A model generated the notes under the pieces. It worked only from the letters and a program-made list of their open reading frames with translations. It was not told the origin of the DNA and did not search any database. The translations under genes were made by a program, and so were the position numbers. This document shows positions 10,550 to 11,033 of a stretch of DNA of 64,000 bases, in pieces. The DNA is from Vampirovibrionales bacterium (GTDB lineage Bacteria; Cyanobacteriota; Vampirovibrionia; Vampirovibrionales; Vampirovibrionaceae): positions 310,001 through 374,000 of the forward strand of contig JAJCZA010000002.1 in the NCBI GenBank assembly GCA_029262635.1. Reading direction: 5' to 3'. Positions within the stretch are counted from its first letter, which is position 1, and every line of letters begins with the position of its first letter.

Positions 10550-10723
10550 CTACCTATTTTTTACACGAAGAAGTAAAAAAAGAGATGTCGGCAATAAGGA
10601 CTTTCTGTCAAGGTTAGACGGTGAGACGATTGTGTTGTTAGGACACCTTACGGTAAAGTTTTGTAAAAACAGAGGGCGATCCTTTGATTCTTACTTGCAA
10701 CTCGATCTTGAAAGGGTACTCTA

Positions 10724-10858
10724 CTATCAACTTCTTAAATTAAATTGTCTTAAATTATTTTAGATCAAATTAAAAAAGATAATTCAATTTAAGATTTCCC
10801 CCTCACTCCCAACCTAAAAATTGGATCCGCCTCTTCGGCAACGAAGAGGCCTTTTTTT
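10724..10858 (+). ncRNA. Candidate small RNA, copy 1
   Basis: A possible promoter is TTGCAA (10696-10701), 16 bases, TACTCT (10718-10723). The 3' part (10795-10858) carries CCCCTCACTCCCAAC, a TAAAAATTGGATCC segment, then a perfect GCCTCTTCG/CGAAGAGGC terminator stem and seven T. The same 3' module recurs 174 bases downstream. The C-rich segment is unpaired in my reading and complementary to GGGAG-type ribosome sites. No protein frame fits. Exact 5' end unknown. Confidence 0.55.
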
Positions 10859-11030
10859 GCCCAAAACGTAACAAAATATTAACCTTTTGAAAGAAACGGT
10901 TGTTTCTTTTCTTCGACTCGCTATACTACTATCCAAGGTTAGTAATACCTTACACGATAAAAAACTTATTTTCCCCTCACTCCCAACTTAAAAATTGGAT
11001 CCGCCTCTTCGATACCGAAGGGGCCTTTTT
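10795..11030 (+). repeat. Tandem direct repeat of an RNA 3' module (two copies)
   Basis: Copies at 10795-10858 and 10969-11030. The shared core runs from CCCCTCACTCCCAAC through TTGGATCCGCCTCTTCG to GGCCTTTTT, with only a handful of differences over about 60 bases. I saw no third copy in the window. Confidence 0.85.
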
Positions 11031-11033
11031 ATT
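10934..11033 (+). ncRNA. Candidate small RNA, copy 2
   Basis: Candidate promoter TTGTTT (10900-10905), 16 bases, TATACT (10922-10927). Transcript of about 100 nt. The 3' module at 10969-11030 repeats copy 1 nearly base for base. Differences fall in the terminator loop (ATAC for GCAA) and at one stem position that keeps pairing as G-U. Both copies also share CTACTATC after the -10 box, so the whole unit appears duplicated. Confidence 0.6.

Follow-up and report, generated by a model that had tools for sequence, protein, structure and literature searches.

A predicted family of Yfr1-like, C-rich sibling small RNAs behind RpaB-type promoter boxes in the Vampirovibrionales

The two complete predicted sRNA genes at positions 10650-11031 of the window (the whole 64,000-nucleotide stretch analysed, contig C2 310001-374000 of a 3.0 Mb genome) probably belong to a new sRNA family whose C-rich siblings act by base-pairing, are controlled by RpaB and have a Yfr1-like build. 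The family is found in the Vampirovibrionales, a non-photosynthetic and partly predatory order of cyanobacteria. Each gene has an activator-like box, a -35 and a -10 hexamer, a 5' stem-loop, the core UUUCCCCCUCACUCCCAACC and an intrinsic terminator. The observations behind this reading are the conservation of the genes, their structure, their distribution, the promoter box and the presence of RpaB, the transcripts and the binding being predictions. An earlier note on this DNA had described two tandem promoter-terminator units with a C-rich core; what is added here are the RpaB-type box, a 5' hairpin in unit 2, a long 5' stem in unit 1 and the spread across the order.

In the mechanism we propose, each sibling gene would be transcribed from its own sigma-70-type promoter, and this transcription would be activated by an OmpR-family regulator, most likely the RpaB of the genome, on binding to the HLR1-like repeat that precedes the start by about 60-70 bp. 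The RNA is predicted to fold so that the 5' stem-loop and the 3' terminator leave the C-rich, G-free core single-stranded. This near-invariant core could then pair with G-rich sequence in target mRNAs, or in a partner RNA, and would most likely lower translation, and the divergent 5' parts may let the siblings differ in stability or in partners.

Anatomy of the two units and selection on the RNA

Both units lie on the plus strand and at the coordinates that the earlier note had given. Unit 1 has the promoter TTGCAA-16 bp-TACTCT (10695-10722; -35 at 10695-10700, -10 at 10717-10722), a layout that most relatives share as TTGCNN-N16-TANNNT. The predicted sRNA 1 (10729-10857) begins with a long 5' stem-loop (10733-10794, arms 10733-10751 and 10776-10794; fold z = -4.3 against dinucleotide shuffles), continues with the C-rich core TTTCCCCCTCACTCCCAACC (10795-10814) and ends in an intrinsic terminator (10829-10857; stem 10829-10850 of 9 bp, GCAA loop, T-run). 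The promoter of unit 2 is TTGTTT-16 bp-TATACT (10900-10927; -35 at 10900-10905, -10 at 10922-10927). Its predicted sRNA 2 (10934-11030) carries the 5' hairpin AAGGU-UAGUAAU-ACCUU (10935-10951), which taken by itself is weak (-3.7 kcal/mol, z -0.7), followed by the core (10969-10989) and a terminator (11003-11030; stem 11003-11024 of 9 bp, T-run). The spacing between -35 and -10 is thus 16 bases in both units, and the shared segment CTACTATC overlaps or follows the -10 in each, as had been noticed before. With starts inferred from the -10 hexamers, sRNA 1 is predicted to measure about 129 nt and sRNA 2 about 97 nt, much as in the earlier note (about 130 and 100 nt). A terminator scan picked up both terminators; a simple sigma-70 scan of the window listed neither promoter. 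To the left the pair is flanked by a hypothetical protein and to the right by a 99-aa hypothetical protein, a YggS-type protein (PF01168) and SepF (PF04472). By BLAST, the genome holds these two copies of the unit only.

The two units have in common a 3' module of about 60 bases, in which 55 of 62 bases are identical (BLAST E 8.5e-18). Within it, a U-A pair of the unit 1 terminator is replaced by U-G in unit 2, so that pairing is preserved, and the tetraloop differs (GCAA in unit 1, AUAC in unit 2). In the alignment over three taxonomic families the columns of the core, which is predicted to be single-stranded in the folds of the units, are near-invariant, whereas the terminator sequence and the 5' part vary. 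In one class of units (class B, e.g., unit 2) the 5' hairpin contains the segment GTTAGTAA, conserved family-wide, and its outer stem bases covary (GGUU/AACC, AGUU/AACU, UGUU/AACA); in the other (class A, e.g., unit 1) the 5' stems are longer and their sequences unrelated. The mean 5' stem is 5.21 bp, against 4.36 +/- 0.24 after arms were swapped among units (equalled in 6 of 5000 permutations), and fold z was below zero in all 15 of the 5' parts tested, with a mean of -2.1; as the units are related and hence not independent, both figures are indicative. A core that hardly changes, combined with a 5' stem and a terminator that change while pairing is kept, reveals that selection acts on the RNA, which the earlier note had already held.

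HLR1-like boxes and the putative role of RpaB

RpaB is best known as a regulator of photosynthesis genes. Its binding site, HLR1, whose definition and activating position are described in PMC13421787, reads KTTACAWW-N2-KTTACAWW, and we scored the reverse complement WWTGTAAM-N2-WWTGTAAM over 16 positions. An HLR1-like repeat matching at least 13 of these 16 positions (three mismatches or fewer) lies above the -35 in 16 of 19 units; the three without a good box are two in G005 and one in G001. The boxes average 13.89/16 at a 10-bp period compared with 11.10 +/- 0.17 in shuffles, and this period alone is enriched, other periods scoring 12.3 at most. The 11-bp spacing of WalR/Pho-type boxes was also considered, and fits more poorly. 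The boxes occupy two sites that differ by one helical turn, lying either 26-28 or 36-38 bp above the -35 and thus at about -61 or -71 relative to the predicted start; they read in the minus direction and span about -53 to -80. Because the repeat was first spotted by eye, the position window was picked only after that, and the units are relatives of one another, binomial values exaggerate the certainty; what can be relied on is the fixed spacing.

The boxes in the window are imperfect, with 14/16 for unit 1 (10650-10667; minus-strand reading TTTACAAAACTTTACCGT) and 13/16 for unit 2 (10865-10882), and a perfect 16/16 site stands before four units, all of them in relatives. In 927,286 positions of the window's own genome, 25 sites reach 14/16 or more (2.7e-5 per position) and none reaches 16/16. 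The genome encodes an RpaB equivalog (NF045944, 356.7 bits, cut-off 330). From the HLR1-like boxes and this equivalog, we strongly infer that RpaB controls these sRNA promoters. In model cyanobacteria HLR1 activates from -45 to -66 (PMC13421787), and the boxes of the family lie partly upstream of this zone, which counts against the proposed activation, as do the imperfect boxes of the window and the units with no good box.

Melainabacteria retain RpaB and NblS without photosynthesis, and what the two do in non-photosynthetic relatives has been a standing question since 2013 (PMC3787301, PMC4040986). Near-perfect RpaB-type sites before conserved sRNA genes provide concrete targets for this question, and both the promoters and the sRNA genes are present in V. 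chlorellavorus, an algal predator that grows in co-culture. We found no publications on sRNAs in the Vampirovibrionales lineage in the open-access literature searched. Tentatively, one might suppose that an RpaB-controlled sRNA regulon predates photosynthesis, or persisted in its absence, and that the present sRNAs are functional counterparts of Yfr1. If this were the case, then the RpaB-to-sRNA wiring of light acclimation would go back to an earlier circuit for redox or envelope stress.

Possible partners of the core and the relation to Yfr1

The shared C-rich segment had been read as complementary to GGGAG-type ribosome sites, with a target search proposed as a check. A bulk test lent this expectation no support: against the start regions of 389 genes of the genome (about 15% of it, which makes the target tests partial), 28 of 40 shuffled cores paired as well as the core or better, although individual mRNAs may still be targets. 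A start-site target conserved across three genera was not found either. The partner of the core may instead be a protein, or a G-rich sRNA that forms a sponge pair with it as in Yfr1-Yfr2 or RoxS-RosA (PMC6778093, PMC8216469), rather than mRNA ribosome sites; the bulk pairing result and the long invariant stretch in the core would fit these precedents. However, three genera yielded no conserved G-rich partner site with at most one mismatch over 12 bases, and we consider this explanation rather unlikely.

One apparent target, TTGG[TC]AGTGAGG, precedes a start codon in both G005 and G004; it was dropped because it is part of a longer reading frame and codes there for FGSEA. In the same two genomes (L133, L144) we observed a conserved Gly/Ala-rich protein with a frame of about 300-340 aa and the sequence FGSEA(M/I)NIPGTSYY, which occurs in 17 of the 18 genomes of the order. 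OprB/som porins are reported targets of Yfr1 in Prochlorococcus. The som/OprB porin start regions, considered as Yfr1-like targets, are not complementary to the core. One OprB/som-type porin mRNA start (L205, G000:C5, near 451618-452430) carries a doubled AGGAGTT (TAGGAGTTAATAGGAGTTGAG) that recurs in G001 and is possibly a double ribosome site or a regulatory motif.

Yfr1 consists of a 5' stem-loop, an unpaired C-rich segment and a terminator (PMC2190773); its motif pairs near start codons and translation is repressed (PMC6974561), and in Nostoc and Prochlorococcus it represses multiple targets (PMC6974561, PMC6778093). Judged by predicted folds and covariation, our family resembles Yfr1 (RF01116) in its 5' stem-loop, its exposed C/U-rich core with CCUCAC and its terminator. 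The family core is CCCCCUCACUCCCAACC, whereas the Yfr1 undecanucleotide is ACUCCUCACAC, with which the window units agree at 8 of 11 bases and the G002 unit (CCCCUCACAC) at 9; the family RNAs occur as tandem paralogues with HLR1-like boxes in front; and Yfr1 measures 54-69 nt, the sRNAs predicted here being about 1.5-2.5 times longer. None of 58 relatives scored above the 38-bit cut-off of RF01116, for which the S. elongatus control was positive, and Yfr1 is absent even from the weak cmscan matches to these units. By motif, length and Rfam model the family is not Yfr1.

A diverged orthologue of Yfr1 (or Yfr10), similar by descent rather than by analogy, would explain the shared anatomy, the CCUCAC and the partial motif matches, the more so since the Vampirovibrionales are sister to photosynthetic cyanobacteria. 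The greater length of the RNAs and the negative searches with RF01116 speak against descent, which we regard as improbable. Under the preferred reading of a separate family, these sRNAs may work like Yfr1 by analogy. A separate observation concerns G012, a Vampirovibrionales bin without the present family, in which a perfect CUCCUCACAC follows a strong GC hairpin (L089 1501-1548; G012:C139:9285-9332); it has no clear terminator and is a weak Yfr1 match (22.1 bits, cut-off 38).

Distribution, genomic setting and known sRNA systems

The earlier note had proposed a covariance model from related genomes. A model of core plus terminator, searched in 18 Vampirovibrionales genomes, recovered the family in 15 of them (E 7e-16 to 4.1e-4, mostly below 1e-7), with one to four units per genome, often in tandem; Vampirovibrio chlorellavorus NCIMB 11383 is among the named carriers. 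Such recurrence greatly exceeds what chance would produce. The weakest matches (G003, G013 and the doubtful G017) have core-like CU-rich sequence ahead of the terminator. G012 would be the 16th carrier, but at E 0.036 is not credible. Of the tandem duplication claimed earlier, the paralogy of the two copies stands; a local duplication does not, given how widely the unit is spread in the order. In the rest of the class, no match is better than about E 2e-4 and those that occur owe their scores to terminators, and a phylum sample of 386 genomes added none at 1e-4. The exact 20-base core pattern matched 10 stretches among 84,980 species genomes, all ten belonging to Vampirovibrionales by name or to contigs placed in the same family or order, and matched nothing in viral contigs. 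A phage collection likewise gave no match to the element. At gathering score, Rfam 15 reports only a tRNA in the window and nothing at the units in related loci; at loose thresholds it offers no family for the units. These searches suggest an RNA family that is previously undescribed and, among the genomes searched, restricted to the Vampirovibrionales, with no convincing match elsewhere.

Among the genomes examined, seven from the window's family and one from family f3 have the units next to a divergent coaBC (PF02441 + PF04127), either singly or in arrays of two to four units. The units of family f2 sit at separate places, and in the window's own genome the pair has a different neighbourhood. 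The terminator at the end of every unit could permit read-through, as in a regulatory leader (attenuator) of a downstream gene. However, the downstream genes vary between genomes, which makes a leader of one gene unlikely, arrays reach four consecutive units, the recurrent neighbour coaBC is divergent, and no Rfam riboswitch or leader exceeds threshold; we rate a leader, as opposed to a trans-acting sRNA, as very improbable. That the units are mobile or integron-like repeat copies without selection as RNA, akin to the unexpressed mobile remnant the earlier note had named as a refutation, is scarcely tenable: the tandem copies and the departure from the coaBC position in the window's genome might be so explained, but the genome has just two copies, no virus matches, and promoter, box, stems, terminator and, in several genera, the coaBC neighbourhood are conserved, over three families in all. 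Additional units in G005 (L036 1640-1745) and G001 (L038 1660-1870) have diverged: they keep the promoter and the GTTAGTAATA segment, but their CU-rich core is degenerate (ACUCACACACUCACUC; ACUCACUCCCAAC), which suggests siblings that are still diverging.

Besides Yfr1, three systems invite comparison with the proposed family of RpaB-controlled siblings. In Bacillus subtilis, RoxS, FsrA and CsfG are several sRNAs of one genome whose unpaired C-rich segments pair with targets (PMC8216469). The present family likewise has several sRNAs per genome with C-rich segments predicted to be unpaired; unlike them it belongs to another lineage, there is no Rfam match between them, and the genes sampled gave no enrichment for ribosome sites. 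Yfr10 of Prochlorococcus is similarly a second sRNA with one conserved motif in common on a divergent scaffold, but its motif differs, and the siblings described here also share the 3' half and the promoter. PsrR1 of Synechocystis is repressed by RpaB under low light, whereas the box position in our family suggests activation. As trans-acting sRNAs in an RpaB regulon, the siblings would still resemble PsrR1 and its feed-forward loop (PMC13421787), although PsrR1 acts on photosystem mRNAs and the host of the family is non-photosynthetic.
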